A stretch of DNA of 29,450 bases from a virus (IMGVR_UViG_3300020450_000069:1-29450); one strand, 5' to 3'. Shown: positions 9,625 to 16,162, numbered from the stretch's first letter. A program made the numbers and translations. The notes: generated by a model from the letters alone, not told the origin.

Positions 9625-9887
9625 TGTTTATCCTTACACTAGAAGATCACCCTGACGGAGTTTTTTCTGTGTTTGGTGAAGACGACAGTCGTATCGTTCC
9701 TATATGGACAAAAGGAGATGATGCAGAAAGATACTTGATGATGATGCAAAATGATATAGATTATCCTCCTATGCAGGTTGTAGAAATGGAAGATCATGTT
9801 ATAATAGGAGCATGTCAAGATCGTGGACAACGTTTTTCCATAATTACACCTGACGATTTTATAATACCACCTGATGATTTAGTATGA
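9624..9887 (+). CDS. Hypothetical protein between gp47 and gp46 (87 aa)
   Basis: This is an acidic small protein (V-F-S-V-F-G-E-D-D start, P-P-D-D near the end) with an alternating beta pattern. It is locked between gp47 and gp46 by a TGATG overlap at its start and a 4-base overlap at its end. Cyanomyoviruses commonly keep a small gene here, so an accessory role for the nuclease is possible. No domain is recognised. Confidence 0.65.
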   Translation: MFILTLEDHPDGVFSVFGEDDSRIVPIWTKGDDAERYLMMMQNDIDYPPMQVVEMEDHVIIGACQDRGQRFSIITPDDFIIPPDDLV

Positions 9888-11629
9888 TAATTTTTGAGAA
9901 TATCCGTTGGAAGAATTTTCTATCAACTGGAAATGTTTTTAGTGAGATTGATTTACAAGAGGGAAGAACAAATCTAATCGTTGGTAGCAACGGTGCAGGA
10001 AAGAGCACCATCTTGGATGCTCTCACTTTTTCATTGTTTGCAAAACCTTTTCGTAAGATTAGTAAAGGATCTTTAGTCAATAGTATTAATGAAAAGGATT
10101 GTGTGGTAGAGATTGAATTTCGTATTGGTAAGCTAGAATATAAAGTTATACGTGGTATTAAACCAAATAAATTTGAGATATATTGTAATGGTCAGGCATG
10201 GAATCAAGAAAGCTCTGTAAATGAACAACAGAAAAATTTTGAGGCAAATGTTCTCAAGATGAATTACAAATCATTTACACAAATTGTTGTATTGGGATCC
10301 TCTACATTTGTCCCATTTATGAAATTGCCAGGTTCACAACGTCGTGATATCATTGAAGACATTCTAGACATTCAAGTATTCTCTACAATGAATGTTCTTC
10401 TCAAGGATAAAATACGTAGTAATAATGAAGAGCTTCGTGATGTTGATTACGAATTAGATTTATTAAAAGATAAGATTGAGTTGCAGAAACAACATATGTT
10501 GTCTTTACAGCAAAAGACTCAGGAAGAAATAGATCGTAAGTTAGATAAAGTAAAAGAATTCAAAGAAACAGAATCACAGGGTGTAGAAGATGTTGAGATT
10601 CTAACAAATCAAATCGGAAGACTTAATGAAGAAATGCAGGAGTATTCAAAGTCCAATGGAAAACTACAAAAGTTGAACACATACTTGATTAAGTTAACAC
10701 ATAAGTTGAACACATGTAAGAAGGAACATAAATTTTTTGAGGACAATCATGTGTGCCCGACGTGTACACAGGAACTATCCGAAGAATTTCGTAATGAAAA
10801 GTTAGAGGCAGGACAGACTAAAGTTGATGAGATGAATGTTGGATATGATGATTTACAACAAGCAATATCAGATGAACAAAAAAGATTTGATAAATTTACC
10901 GAACTATCTACTGAAGTAAACAATATTAATACAACAATTTCTCAAACCAATTTTCAGTTAATGACTATCAGAAAACAGGTAGAGGAATTAGAATCTGAGA
11001 TCAAAGGACTAGAGGGAGCTAGTCCAGATAAGAAAGCAGAATTAGATAAATTACAACTTCTTGTAAACAGTAAAAAGGATTTTGCTAAACAACATGCTAA
11101 CCTAAAGAAAGACCGTGATGTTCTAACAACAGCAGGTCAACTTCTCAAAGATAATGGTATTAAGACTAGGATTATTAAAACCTATCTTCCTACTATGAAT
11201 AAGTTAATTAACGATTTCTTACAAAGGATGGAGTTTTATGTCAATTTCACCCTAAATGAAAACTTTGAGGAGATAATTAAAAGTAGATACCGTGACGTAT
11301 TTTCCTATGATAGTTTCAGCGAGGGTGAAAAAGCTCGTATTGATATCGCTCTTCTGCTCACTTGGCGCAGTATTGCTAAGCTTAAGAATAGCGTGGATAC
11401 TAACTTACTTATCTTAGACGAGATATTTGATGGATCACTAGATCAAACTGGCACATCTGATCTAGGATGGATCCTCAGAAATTTTGATGAGAACACAAGA
11501 GTCTATGTAATTAGTCACAAACAGAATTTAGATGATAAGTTTGATAGAACTATAACTGTTGAGAAAGAAAAAAATTATTCCATTATAAAGGAGACAGTTC
11601 ACGAAGTGTCACATGCACTGGTTGGTTAG
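9884..11629 (+). CDS. gp46: Recombination nuclease ATPase subunit gp46 (SbcC/Rad50-like)
   Basis: gp46 is the SMC-like ATPase partner of gp47. In 581 residues the order is Walker A G-S-N-G-A-G-K-S-T (about 34-42), Q-loop region, a long coiled coil (about 170-430), a zinc hook C-P-T-C at 291-294 in the middle of the coil, then the ABC signature F-S-E-G-E-K-A-R (about 478-485), Walker B L-L-I-L-D-E-I (about 507-513) and the D-loop. Everything needed for ATP-driven dimerisation is present. The ATG overlaps the upstream stop. Confidence 0.96.
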   Translation: MIIFENIRWKNFLSTGNVFSEIDLQEGRTNLIVGSNGAGKSTILDALTFSLFAKPFRKISKGSLVNSINEKDCVVEIEFRIGKLEYKVIRGIKPNKFEIYCNGQAWNQESSVNEQQKNFEANVLKMNYKSFTQIVVLGSSTFVPFMKLPGSQRRDIIEDILDIQVFSTMNVLLKDKIRSNNEELRDVDYELDLLKDKIELQKQHMLSLQQKTQEEIDRKLDKVKEFKETESQGVEDVEILTNQIGRLNEEMQEYSKSNGKLQKLNTYLIKLTHKLNTCKKEHKFFEDNHVCPTCTQELSEEFRNEKLEAGQTKVDEMNVGYDDLQQAISDEQKRFDKFTELSTEVNNINTTISQTNFQLMTIRKQVEELESEIKGLEGASPDKKAELDKLQLLVNSKKDFAKQHANLKKDRDVLTTAGQLLKDNGIKTRIIKTYLPTMNKLINDFLQRMEFYVNFTLNENFEEIIKSRYRDVFSYDSFSEGEKARIDIALLLTWRSIAKLKNSVDTNLLILDEIFDGSLDQTGTSDLGWILRNFDENTRVYVISHKQNLDDKFDRTITVEKEKNYSIIKETVHEVSHALVG

Positions 11630-11671: not shown

Positions 11672-13879
11672 ATGCAAATGCAAACCCAAGAAATCAAAGG
11701 TAACCTTGCAAGATTACTTGCCACAGAAAATCTTATTGTAGAACACCGCAAGGTTCCTACTGCAATGTTTGACGTAGACCGTCGTGTATTGACATTGCCA
11801 ATGTGGGATAAAGCATCTAGTGTTGTATATGACATGCTAGTAGGTCATGAGGTAGGACATGCATTGTTCACACCTAACGAAGACTGGCGTGATGCTGTTG
11901 ACTGTCCTAAAGATTTTATCAACGTTATTGAGGATGCTCGTATTGAGAAACTTATGAAGCGTAAGTTTCCAGGTCTTAACAAGTCTTTTGCAGGTGGATA
12001 TAAAGAATTACATGACATGGATTTCTTCAGTGTTCAAGGTCAAGACCTAAGCACTTTCAGTTTGATTGATCGTATCAATCTTCACTTCAAGATTGGTGCT
12101 AAAGCATTAGTTCCTTTCTCTATTGAAGAACAGCTATTTGTTGCTCGCACTGATCTTGCTGAGACTTTTGAAGAAGTCTTACAAATTGCTTCTGATGTAT
12201 ATGAGTTCAGTAAGCAAGAAAATGATATGCAACAGATTGATGTTGCTATTGACCCATCTGTATCTGAGAGTGGATCAGGAAATACTTCTATGTCATCTGA
12301 TAATCAAGATTCTGGTGAGGCAGATGGTGATGAGCAAGATCAAGATGATGCAGATCAAGAATCTCAATCAGGAAGAACAGGTGGAGCAACATCAAGCACT
12401 GGTTCAGATCTAGAAGATGTAAGAGATGATTGGTATGATGAGGATGGCGATATGATTGATGAACTAGGTGAAGAGGGTGGTCAAACAGGTGGAGATACTT
12501 CTGAGTCTAAGACTCAACGTTCTTTTGATAATGCATCAGAAAATCTTTCCTCTCGCGAAATTCGTGATCCACAGTATGTTGAGATTCCTGATACAGTTGA
12601 TCTAGATAAGCATGTTGTTGATTGGAAAAAACTTCATGATTGGATTGATAGTCAATCACAAGGCACAGAAGTATACCTAGAAGTTGATCAAACATACCAA
12701 GCATTTCGTAAGCAATCTCAAAAAGAGGTGAACTATCTTGTCAAAGAATTTGAGTGCAAAAAATCTGCTGATGCCTATGCACGTGCAGGTCAGTCTAAGA
12801 CTGGTGTTCTTGATACTACAAAGTTACACACCTACAAATACAATGATGACATTTTCAAAAAGATAACTGTATTACCTGATGGTAAGAATCATGGTCTACT
12901 ATTTCTTCTTGACTGGTCTGGTTCTATGTCAGGTGAGATTCTTTCAACTGTCAAACAACTTCTAAACCTAACTGCATTCTGCAAAAAAGTTCAGATTCCA
13001 TTTGAGGTATATGCATTTACTAATGAGTGGATTATTGCTGAGCGTGCTATGCAAGGTATAGAAGGTCGTGATGCATACTATGGTGATTATCACAAAAAAT
13101 CTAATGCTGAAAAGAACAAGGTTTATGTAAATGATGAGTGGTTCCACCTAATGAATTTTGTTTCATCTCGTTCTAATGGTAAGGACTATGAGCGTATGTG
13201 CAAAAATCTTTGGAGAGAAGCTTCTTACTACAGAAACTACACTGGTTATCAGTATACTCTAGGTTTACAACTTTCTGGAACTCCTTTGAATGAAGCAATT
13301 GTAATGATGAATTACATTATCCCTGAGTTCAAGAAAAACAATTCTCTTCAGAAAGTAAATCTTTGCATCTTATCTGATGGAGATGCATGCACATCAGCAT
13401 ACGGTCAAGAAATTTATCTTGATCATGAGGATGAGTATGTTATTCGTGCACGTCGTCTTGACTGGAATACAATTCTACGTGACCGTAAAACTGGTCACAC
13501 ATACCCACAGTTTGAGTATGACACTGTTACAAACATTTTTATTCAACAGTTACGTGATCGTAATCCTGATGTAAATGTAATTGGTTTCCGTATTCTTCAA
13601 GGCAATGACCTTTCTAGTTTTGTAGGAAAGTATGCAAACTTTGAATACTATGCTGAAGTACAAAAGCAATGGAAAAAAGAGAAGTCTGCCATTATCAAAA
13701 ACCCAAAAGCTTACAGTGCATTATACGCTATCAATGGTAAATCATTGAACAAAGAAATTGAGTTTGATGTTGAGTCTGGTGCTAAGAAGAGTGACATCTC
13801 TCGTGCATTCAAGAAAATGCTTAACAACAAATCAACTAACAAAAAACTACTCAGTTCTTTCATAGGGTATGTCAGTTGA
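11672..13879 (+). CDS. CobT-like VWA protein with N-terminal zincin-type HExxH motif (735 aa)
   Basis: The C-terminal half matches the VWA domain of CobT-type cobaltochelatase subunits: a segment R-A-G-Q-S-K-T-G-V-L-D (371-381) leads into a complete MIDAS, D-W-S-G-S (414-418), Thr in S-G-T-P-L-N-E (537), and Asp in L-S-D-G-D (569). The N-terminal part carries H-E-V-G-H (59-63) and, 20-30 residues on, N-V-I-E-D-A-R-I-E (84-92), the layout of a zinc metallopeptidase with a downstream Glu ligand. An acidic Ser/Asp/Gln-rich linker (about 190-290) joins the two parts. The adjacent CobS-like AAA+ gene is its expected partner, as in MoxR-VWA pairs. The cobalamin role is inferred only: no large CobN-type subunit is visible. 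A peptidase or chaperone function is equally possible. Confidence 0.82.
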   Translation: MQMQTQEIKGNLARLLATENLIVEHRKVPTAMFDVDRRVLTLPMWDKASSVVYDMLVGHEVGHALFTPNEDWRDAVDCPKDFINVIEDARIEKLMKRKFPGLNKSFAGGYKELHDMDFFSVQGQDLSTFSLIDRINLHFKIGAKALVPFSIEEQLFVARTDLAETFEEVLQIASDVYEFSKQENDMQQIDVAIDPSVSESGSGNTSMSSDNQDSGEADGDEQDQDDADQESQSGRTGGATSSTGSDLEDVRDDWYDEDGDMIDELGEEGGQTGGDTSESKTQRSFDNASENLSSREIRDPQYVEIPDTVDLDKHVVDWKKLHDWIDSQSQGTEVYLEVDQTYQAFRKQSQKEVNYLVKEFECKKSADAYARAGQSKTGVLDTTKLHTYKYNDDIFKKITVLPDGKNHGLLFLLDWSGSMSGEILSTVKQLLNLTAFCKKVQIPFEVYAFTNEWIIAERAMQGIEGRDAYYGDYHKKSNAEKNKVYVNDEWFHLMNFVSSRSNGKDYERMCKNLWREASYYRNYTGYQYTLGLQLSGTPLNEAIVMMNYIIPEFKKNNSLQKVNLCILSDGDACTSAYGQEIYLDHEDEYVIRARRLDWNTILRDRKTGHTYPQFEYDTVTNIFIQQLRDRNPDVNVIGFRILQGNDLSSFVGKYANFEYYAEVQKQWKKEKSAIIKNPKAYSALYAINGKSLNKEIEFDVESGAKKSDISRAFKKMLNNKSTNKKLLSSFIGYVS

Positions 13880-13894
13880 CAAAGTGGCACATAG

Positions 13895-13912
13895 GGGGTT
13901 GCCTATAACCCC
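13895..13912 (+). repeat. Inverted repeat overlapping the cobS promoter
   Basis: GGGGTT and AACCCC form a perfect 6-bp stem with a 6-base loop, starting 15 bases after the CobT-like stop. The repeat covers the -35 hexamer of the next promoter. No T-run follows, so a terminator is unlikely; an operator is possible. Confidence 0.6.
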
Positions 13913-13927
13913 ACCACACCCTATACT
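13899..13927 (+). promoter_or_regulatory. Sigma70-like promoter for cobS
   Basis: TTGCCT (13899-13904) and TATACT (13922-13927) are separated by exactly 17 bases in the 85-base gap before cobS, a good match to a host housekeeping promoter as used for phage early genes. Transcription would start near 13934. Confidence 0.65.
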
Positions 13928-13964
13928 ATATTCATACACAACAAACCGAATCCTTTTTAATCCA

Positions 13965-15068
13965 ATGCCTTTTGAACCAGTTCCTGTTACAACCGAAGAC
14001 CTAGTTACATACCTTACTGATAAGGTTGGTACTGAGGTAAATACTAAACAACTCTTTGAAGCTTCAGAACATTTCAATTGTTCTCTTGCTACTGTCAAGA
14101 AAAGACTCAAGTCTTATAAGCAAGGCATTGGTAAGTGGAATCTTACTGTTCAAGAAAAACTTGAAAAGACTTTCCAAGCACCCTCTGCAATGCCCTCTGT
14201 CGTACAAAATCTTATTCCTTTCAAAGACGACAGTTATGTTCCTTTTGGTAATTTTGCTGACGTAAAAAAAGTTATCAATTCTAAATTATTCTATCCAGTT
14301 TTTATCACTGGTATGTCAGGTAATGGTAAAACATTTTCTGTTGAGCAAGCATGTGCTGTTCTAAATAGAGAATTAATTCGCGTAAATATTACAATTGAAA
14401 CAGACGAAGATGATCTTATTGGTGGGTTCCGTCTTGTTAATGGTAATACTGTTTGGCACAACGGACCTGTGGTTGAAGCTTTGGAAAGGGGAGCTATACT
14501 ACTTCTAGACGAAGTTGACCTTGCATCTAATAAAATCCTTTGCTTGCAATCTGTCCTTGAGGGTAAAGGAGTATTCCTTAAAAAGATTGGTAGATATGTA
14601 AAACCCTCTGCAGGTTTTAATATCATTGCTACTGCAAATACTAAGGGTAAAGGTAGTGACGATGGTAGATTCATCGGAACTAATGTTCTCAACGAAGCAT
14701 TCCTTGAAAGATTTGCTTTGACATTTGAACAAGAATATCCTGCTCCCAAGACAGAGCAAAAAATACTTGAGAAAGTAGCTGCTATTGTTGGTAAAAATGA
14801 CACAGAGTTCTATCAGAATCTTGCTAACTGGGCAGACATCATTCGTAGAACTTTCAAGGATGGTGGTATTGATGAGGTCATCTCAACACGTAGACTTGTT
14901 CACATCGTGAGAGCATACTCTATTTGGAATGATCGTATGAAAGCAATCAAAGTTTGTGTCAATCGTTTTGATGAAGAGACTAAGCAATCCTTCATTGAAT
15001 TGTATGATAAGATTGATGCAGGTGTAAATTTAGAGGAGACTGATGAAGAAACTGAACAAACAGTTTGA
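13965..15068 (+). CDS. cobS: CobS-like AAA+ ATPase (MoxR family)
   Basis: The product is 367 residues from the ATG at 13965. An N-terminal region of about 100 residues is followed by the AAA+ core: Walker A G-M-S-G-N-G-K-T, Walker B I-L-L-L-D-E-V-D, sensor 1 A-T-A-N-T, and an arginine-finger region N-E-A-F-L-E-R-F, then a helical lid. In bacteria CobS powers cobalt insertion with CobT and CobN; cyanomyoviruses often carry cobS alone or near replication genes. An in-frame ATG at 13869 would put the promoter and hairpin inside the coding region, so the later start is preferred. The neighbouring VWA protein is the expected partner. Confidence 0.85.
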   Translation: MPFEPVPVTTEDLVTYLTDKVGTEVNTKQLFEASEHFNCSLATVKKRLKSYKQGIGKWNLTVQEKLEKTFQAPSAMPSVVQNLIPFKDDSYVPFGNFADVKKVINSKLFYPVFITGMSGNGKTFSVEQACAVLNRELIRVNITIETDEDDLIGGFRLVNGNTVWHNGPVVEALERGAILLLDEVDLASNKILCLQSVLEGKGVFLKKIGRYVKPSAGFNIIATANTKGKGSDDGRFIGTNVLNEAFLERFALTFEQEYPAPKTEQKILEKVAAIVGKNDTEFYQNLANWADIIRRTFKDGGIDEVISTRRLVHIVRAYSIWNDRMKAIKVCVNRFDEETKQSFIELYDKIDAGVNLEETDEETEQTV

Positions 15069-15237: not shown

Positions 15238-15494
15238 AATACAATGAGAAAGAGATTCTTGATGAAATCTCTGACTACATCTCCAATACCTATGGTGCTC
15301 ACTACAGTCAAAATGATGGGTTTCAAACCCTTGATCTTATTGACGCTATAGGTGACGCAGAAGCATTCTGTAGGTCTAACATATTAAAATATGCTTCACG
15401 TTATGACAAAAAAGGTACAGCGAAAAAAGACATCTTTAAAGTTGTCCATTACGCAGTATTACTATTACATTTTCACAACAAATCTACATCATGA
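15234..15494 (+). CDS. DUF3310-like protein (86 aa)
   Basis: The pattern A-H-Y-S-Q, D-L-I-D-A-I-G-D-A-E-A-F, N-I-L-K-Y-A-S-R-Y-D-K-K-G and K-D-I-F-K-V-V-H-Y-A matches the DUF3310 family found in many phages, often annotated loosely as nucleotide kinase-like although its function is not established. The position directly before the sliding clamp suggests a link with replication. Start ATG? The start codon is TTG at 15234 (TTG-AAA-TAC), overlapping the upstream stop TGA. Confidence 0.68.
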   Translation: MKYNEKEILDEISDYISNTYGAHYSQNDGFQTLDLIDAIGDAEAFCRSNILKYASRYDKKGTAKKDIFKVVHYAVLLLHFHNKSTS

Positions 15495-16162
15495 GTAAAG
15501 TTACTTTATCTAAAAAGACACTAGACGTTCTTAAAAACTTTAGCACCATCAACTCCTCAATTGTATTTCGTAAAGGAAGTACAGTAAGGACTATTTCAAA
15601 CGCTGAAAATATTTTAGCTAAATTTACTGGTGAAGAGGTGTTTCCTTCTGATTTTGCAATCTATGATTTAAGTCAGTTTCTTAGTGGTATCTCTCTGTTC
15701 AATGATCCACAATTGGAATTTACAACTTCAGATTTTGTGAACATTAAAGGTGGTCGCCAGTCTGCTAAGTATTATTTTTCCGATCCTGAGATCACTCTTA
15801 AATCTGCACCAGAAAGGAATGTAAATTTTCCTGGCTCTGATCTTGAGTTTAATCTTACTGGTGATGATTTGATTGCCTTGCAAAAGGCATCTGCTATTTA
15901 CAGTTTACCCGATCTTACTTTCTTTTCTGAAGAGGGATCAGACACTATCAAACTTATTCTTAGAGATAAGGAAAACGATACTAGCAATACTTATGACATC
16001 ACATTACAAGGAACTGCTACTGGTACGTTTAGTCTTGATCTCAAGATTGAAAACATCCGTTTGTTGCCAGGCGACTATAATGTAAAAGTATCCCAACATC
16101 TTATTTCCGAGTGGACTAATACTGATGTTGACCTTACTTATTACATTGCACTAGAACCTTGA
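15491..16162 (+). CDS. gp45: Sliding clamp gp45
   Basis: gp45 is the trimeric processivity clamp for gp43 and the mobile activator of gp55-dependent late transcription. The length of 223 residues is close to T4 (228). It begins M-S-K-V-T-L-S-K-K-T-L-D-V-L-K-N-F and has F-A-I-Y-D-L-S-Q-F-L in the first domain, typical of T4-like clamps. The stop TGA overlaps a TTG start of the next gene. Confidence 0.95.
   Translation: MSKVTLSKKTLDVLKNFSTINSSIVFRKGSTVRTISNAENILAKFTGEEVFPSDFAIYDLSQFLSGISLFNDPQLEFTTSDFVNIKGGRQSAKYYFSDPEITLKSAPERNVNFPGSDLEFNLTGDDLIALQKASAIYSLPDLTFFSEEGSDTIKLILRDKENDTSNTYDITLQGTATGTFSLDLKIENIRLLPGDYNVKVSQHLISEWTNTDVDLTYYIALEP

Follow-up and report, generated by a model that had tools for sequence, protein, structure and literature searches.

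Positions 11672 to 15068 of the viral DNA stretch IMGVR_UViG_3300020450_000069 (29,450 bases, analysed whole and called the window here) hold two genes, encoding a CobT-like protein and a CobS-like ATPase. The pair is probably a phage MoxR-type AAA+ ATPase together with a VWA co-factor that carries an intact zincin-type metallopeptidase domain, and not a vitamin B12 gene. This reading draws on the domain architecture, the strict conservation of both the metallopeptidase site and the metal-ion-dependent adhesion site (MIDAS) of the VWA domain, the linkage of the two genes, their position among replication genes and the homology to CobT, together with a predicted zincin-like fold. Sequence comparison indicates that the N-terminal domain of the phage protein is homologous to that of bacterial CobT, by way of the proteins of SSU5-type phage-plasmids. 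In CobT this domain is a zincin that has decayed; in most phages the site is still intact.

The CobT-like protein begins with the zincin-like domain and continues through an acidic linker into the VWA domain. The features of the pair are as follows.

11672–13879, + strand: CobT-like or 'peptidase' gene (T4-GC 146), open reading frame of 735 amino acids; PHROG 459, E = 1.1e-274
11693–12244, + strand: zincin-like N-terminal domain (residues ~8–191), from an AlphaFold2 model whose best Foldseek and VIA matches are zincins
11846–11860, + strand: HEXXH motif, H59-E-V-G-H63, read from the sequence and conserved in 74/74 homologues
11921–11947, + strand: N84-V-I-E87-D88-A-R-I-E92, helix with the putative third metal ligand (D88 favoured, E87 the alternative), from conservation and lineage comparison
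12239–12571, + strand: acidic low-complexity linker; residues 206–300 are 32% Asp/Glu
12884–13771, + strand: VWA domain, approximate limits, from conservation and from homology to CobT_C via SSU5-type proteins
12911–12925, 13280–13282 and 13376–13378, + strand: MIDAS, comprising D414-x-S-x-S (DWSGS at residues 414–418), T537 and D569, the last two assigned by conservation
13869–15068, + strand: CobS-like MoxR-type AAA+ ATPase gene (T4-GC 150), 399 amino acids; PHROG 249, 'porphyrin biosynthesis', i.e. cobS
14310–14333, + strand: Walker A, GMSGNGKT at residue 148, read from the sequence
14508–14519, + strand: Walker B, DEVD at residue 214, read from the sequence

An earlier note on this DNA, made from the sequence alone, had picked out the HEVGH and NVIEDARIE motifs, the MIDAS, the acidic linker and the MoxR-type gene downstream, and all are present in the open reading frames, the two motifs at the residues it gave. 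The CobT-like gene possibly starts at M3 (11678). A Pfam scan of its product returned no family at E ≤ 1, PF06213 and PF11775 included, a scan of NCBIfam gave nothing useful, and there was no match to the PADLOC anti-phage defence models or to PF13203 (DUF2201_N).

The 154 full-length homologues collected from IMG/VR and GenBank reduce to 75 at <90% identity, the most divergent of which are ~20–30% identical to the window protein. No substitution of H59, E60, H63, T67, N84, E87, D88 or R90 occurs in any of the 74 non-redundant homologues that retain the N-terminus, while the position of E92 is Glu in 64 of these and Asp in 10. D414, S416, S418 and D569 of the MIDAS are identical in 75/75; at T537 one sequence has Ser and the other 74 have Thr. 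This conservation of both sites excludes a chance origin of the motifs; poor conservation, set beforehand as a possible refutation, was not seen. A tblastn search with the CobT-like protein gave matches in 463 phage records (Synechococcus phages 365, 'Cyanophage' 61, Prochlorococcus phages 24), and the CobS-like protein gave the same numbers for these three groups. The two are core genes of the T4-like ocean cyanophages, carried by nearly all, and Sullivan et al. 2010 (PMC3037559) include cobS in the cyanophage core. Throughout Kyanoviridae the CobT-like gene is annotated as 'peptidase'. Pseudoalteromonas phage vB_Psh_XG4, whose record is marked UNVERIFIED, has its CobT-like protein divided between two reading frames; one contains HEVSH and EDIRIE, and the other has DFSWS where the window protein has DWSGS. 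A rearrangement or a sequencing error may account for this.

The AlphaFold2 model of residues 1–200 (67 sequences) has a mean predicted local distance difference test score (pLDDT) of 87 and a predicted template modelling score of 0.82. Starting at the N-terminus the chain forms a helix and three strands, then the HEXXH helix (50–66) and a helix (80–98) bearing both E87 and D88, each invariant in Kyanoviridae, and continues as further helices. The top 12 Foldseek matches in the PDB are selecase, abylysin, jannalysin and ArdC, all of them zincins, with a best probability of at least 0.9. On structural realignment with VIA, zincins fill essentially all the leading rows, headed by ZMPSTE24 (Z = 7.3, 133 residues, 3.4 Å), selecase (6.1, 95 residues, 3.1 Å) and ArdC (6.0, 122 residues, 4.3 Å), and with IrrE (5.6), BlaR1 (5.5), BepA (5.1) and Wss1 (4.6) lower down; the first clearly unrelated fold is TetR, at Z = 3.5. 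The N-terminus is therefore called zincin-like because the list of matches is coherent, rather than from any one score, and the structure prediction and fold search agree with the zincin-type domain that the earlier note had suspected. Profile searches of PDB sequences with three alignment profiles found no relative. The best structural matches, the minigluzincins (selecase, abylysin and jannalysin) and ArdC, differ from the phage protein in that they stand alone or are otherwise fused, have no AAA+ or VWA partner, and share 10–19% identity with it.

The profile of the window protein family finds SSU5-type proteins and those of Rhizobium, Stenotrophomonas and Roseobacter phages and an Acinetobacter plasmid, with E from 4e-7 to 1e-12 (hmmsearch to the SSU5 protein, 3.5e-11), and hhalign of the cyanophage N-terminal domain with phage and phage-plasmid CobT gives E = 1.2e-10. 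The SSU5 protein is clearly CobT by Pfam (PF06213, E = 2e-37; PF11775, E = 2.5e-112). The phage CobT group in turn aligns with the N-termini of cellular CobT at E = 4.1e-6, placing its own R-G-F-L-D-H-E-V-A-H opposite R-G-F-A-D-A-F-A-L-R of the cellular proteins. Comparing the cyanophage N-terminus and cellular CobT directly, hhalign failed to connect them (probability 3%), so the link between them relies on the phage-plasmid intermediate. No matches were found in viral contigs scanned with the Ochrobactrum phage protein, or in 289 alphaproteobacterial genomes searched with the cyanophage profile, a search that had no positive control. Among plasmids, ~994 records encode the CobT-like protein, most of them SSU5-like phage-plasmids from Klebsiella, Escherichia, Acinetobacter and Enterobacter, and its usual annotation there is porphyrin or cobalamin biosynthesis.

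HEXXH is intact in 15 of the 18 phage or phage-plasmid proteins compared, including those of SSU5, an E. coli plasmid, Klebsiella PO552, Cupriavidus, Rhizobium, Roseobacter CRP-810, ICP2-type, Tsukamurella and Gordonia elements and halovirus HCTV-2. It is absent from all the cellular CobT checked (81 sphingomonad and 17 other alphaproteobacterial), which keep the E-x-A-R-[IV]-E helix, and also from the solved CobT chain when aligned. The MIDAS is intact in 19/19 proteins compared, cellular CobT included. In a model of the N-terminal domain of cellular CobT (pLDDT 94) the elements follow the order seen in the phage domain; the matches of this model to zincins are weaker (selecase, Z = 5.1, 97 residues, 4.4 Å) and mixed among unrelated folds. 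The tree has two changes of HEXXH state (2–3 in bootstraps), with long branches that make placement and rooting unsure. The labels 'CobT' and 'peptidase' are both partly right, and their conflict is explained because they name homologous proteins, among which it is usually the viral ones alone that have kept the HEXXH site.

H59, E60, H63 and E87 had been named in the earlier note as the residues that a zincin-type site would bring together. The HEXXH residues hold up; as third ligand, E87 is the weaker candidate. The equivalent of D88 is Asp in every protein with an intact HEXXH, and that of E87 is Val in the ICP2-type protein. Proteins that have lost HEXXH keep E87, while D88 is mostly changed (T, S or E; D is retained in ANB28). 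Since D88 tracks HEXXH while E87 persists where the motif is lost, D88 is more likely than E87 to be the third metal ligand.

The CobS-like protein matches AAA_5 (E = 6.6e-20) and the solved midasin, CobS and CbbQ/NorQ, with 29% identity to CobS over 256 residues. Homology begins near query residue 33, which makes the ATG at 13965 the probable true start. An earlier ATG, the first in the reading frame, overlaps the CobT-like stop, and the 32-residue extension that it adds (13869–13965) is probably not translated or not conserved. Residues ~33–110 of the Kyanoviridae ATPase (13965–14200) have no Pfam match and resemble a small helical binding domain. Of 171 testable loci, 164 have the CobS-like gene on the same strand as the CobT-like gene and within ~1.1 kb of it (median gap 61 nt); the arrangement is that of a MoxR–VWA pair, a MoxR-type AAA+ gene beside a VWA protein with an intact MIDAS. 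CobS-like matches in Kayvirus, Pumpernickel and similar phages were dropped, there being no HEXXH–VWA protein among the neighbouring genes.

Across Kyanoviridae the pair sits between gp46 and gp45, which in the window are located as follows.

9884–11629, + strand: gp46, SbcC-like recombination nuclease subunit (PHROG 77), upstream neighbour of the CobT-like gene
15491–16162, + strand: gp45 sliding clamp (PHROG 223), downstream neighbour of the CobS-like gene

In SSU5-type elements, whose replisomes are unrelated to those of Kyanoviridae, the pair adjoins DNA ligase and/or DnaE. It is thus found among replication genes in two unrelated replication systems. Within the stretches fetched, CRP-810, Gordonia, Tsukamurella and HCTV-2 are exceptions, with no adjoining polymerase.

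This position suggests a role in replication: in that phase the pair would probably act on a protein of the phage or the host, rather than take part in B12 synthesis. A specific protein would be captured by the MIDAS of the VWA domain, and a hexamer of the CobS-like ATPase, using ATP, would pull or remodel it through the acidic linker. The HEXXH/D88 site would hold zinc and cleave the presented substrate or part of it. As the site is kept, the function is directly testable by point mutants (H59, E60, D88 and D414). A wider proposal is offered only tentatively, as we think it more doubtful than the reading for the window itself. The viral pairs might be an ATP-powered metalloprotease system of bacterial and archaeal tailed viruses that removes or processes a replication-linked protein, with cellular CobST (often without CobN) a protease-dead descendant whose cobalamin role is derived.

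Several observations weigh against an active metallopeptidase working in replication. The Foldseek E-values are not significant alone (best 0.066), and all VIA Z-scores are below 8. HEXXH is lost and the MIDAS kept in Pseudomonas nickie, Stenotrophomonas ANB28, Acinetobacter pDD520 and all the cellular CobT examined, so that proteolysis must be dispensable in some versions. No expression-phase data were found, the transcriptome paper giving no timing for cobS or the peptidase gene. The losses would suit a non-proteolytic MoxR–VWA remodelling chaperone, in which the zincin-like domain only binds peptide, metal or a partner. Decayed peptidase domains often serve for binding alone, the MIDAS is more universal than HEXXH, and the cellular CobT domain retains its order of helices and strands without the motif. 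Such a chaperone is nevertheless unlikely for the window pair, as H59, E60, H63, N84 and D88 are fully invariant in Kyanoviridae, and the retention of HEXXH in the majority of distant phage lineages, an archaeal virus included, suggests selection on catalysis.

In an archaeal virus a MoxR–VWA pair functions in forming the tail, and T4-like phages process many head proteins. The pair might accordingly be a virion machine that assembles and trims structural proteins, as proposed by Iyer et al. 2021 (PMC7824862) for MoxR and VWA-metallopeptidase pairs of T4-like jumbo phages. The pair of those (group 2.2) phages is like that of the window in architecture, with a MoxR ATPase gene beside a VWA protein having an N-terminal metallopeptidase. 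The study differs in treating jumbo phages, with CobS/CobT unmentioned in its main text, and in proposing virion assembly. In the window, the pair lies in a replication block rather than a structural one, and a prohead protease, gp21, is already encoded. The T4-late-type motif ATAAATA stands shortly upstream of the scaffold gene gp22 (388) and the gp3-like gene (4076), and a motif scan of the window found none near 11672 or 13869, which is weak evidence. We consider a virion function rather unlikely.

The reading of the pair as viral cobaltochelatase subunits was proposed by Liu et al. 2021 (PMC8651126), who grouped viral CobST with cobaltochelatase, called the cyanophage 'peptidase' label a mistake and suggested capture of host CobN, which would raise the supply of cobalamin. 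The homology to CobT and CobS set out above is real, and a cyanobacterial control genome holds a CobN/ChlH-type protein. The cellular cobaltochelatase CobS–CobT (PF06213/PF11775; PDB 9uka series, 21vu) shares with the window the gene pair, the AAA+ type, the acidic linker, the VWA MIDAS, the N-terminal secondary-structure order and the E-x-A-R-[IV]-E helix. It differs in that D-x-x-[AS]-L-[RK] replaces HEXXH in the cellular CobT checked. The window CobS-like protein scores 70.4 bits against the CobS equivalog TIGR01650, far under the curated cut-off of 558 bits, and its partner has no Pfam CobT match. As the earlier note had remarked, no CobN-type gene is found in the 29,450 bases. The pair has relatives in elements whose hosts are Escherichia, Salmonella, Klebsiella, Vibrio, Acinetobacter and Pelagibacter, none of which is known to use CobN. 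CobT (PF06213) is itself present in 216 of the 289 alphaproteobacterial genomes, of which just 111 have a CobN match (TIGR02257) and 105 (drafts included) have none. Cellular CobST may serve some purpose other than cobalt insertion. The control set gives a further case, Caulobacter vibrioides, with CobT but no CobN match. The B12 reading is weakened by the low CobS score, the retention in phages of a site that cellular CobT has lost, the hosts without known CobN and the cellular CobT that often lacks it, and we judge it very improbable. The strict conservation of the putative active site also argues against calling the 'peptidase' label a mistake, and the earlier doubt that this is just a B12 gene appears justified.

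The CobT/CobS pairs of SSU5-type phage-plasmids, ICP2-type phages and haloarchaeal tailed viruses (PMC8651126) have the same architecture with HEXXH mostly intact, and the SSU5-type pair adjoins replication genes as in the window; they differ in being annotated as cobalamin genes. The architecture itself (Iyer et al. 2021) and the routine 'peptidase' annotation were already known, so that the idea of the earlier note is not new; its zincin-like domain and its doubt over B12 stand. cobS has long been listed as a B12 auxiliary metabolic gene of marine cyanophages and serves as an ecological marker; its partner goes by the name 'peptidase', and one paper treats it as a mis-annotated CobT. The evidence for a decayed zincin joins both labels, and cautions against taking viral cobST for vitamin B12 metabolism. 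A bacterial putative metallopeptidase, DUF2201_N (PF13203), is alike by motif, having HEXXH followed by N-x-x-x-D-x-x-I, a VWA-like domain and a MoxR/P-loop ATPase neighbour. This protein beside its P-loop ATPase gene is a possible cellular counterpart of the phage machine.

The gene content of the window marks it as part of the genome of a T4-like (Kyanoviridae) phage. It encodes a gp21-type protease, scaffold, major head protein, gp3-like tail protein, UvsY and UvsW, a gp55-type late sigma factor and gp47/gp46, followed by the pair, gp45 and gp44, and also methyltransferases, DNA polymerase, UvsX and the replicative helicase. No RNA family, tRNA or notable repeat was found in the region of the pair. 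ATAAATA occurs four times in the whole window compared with 11.7 expected by chance, and is thus present below the chance level.

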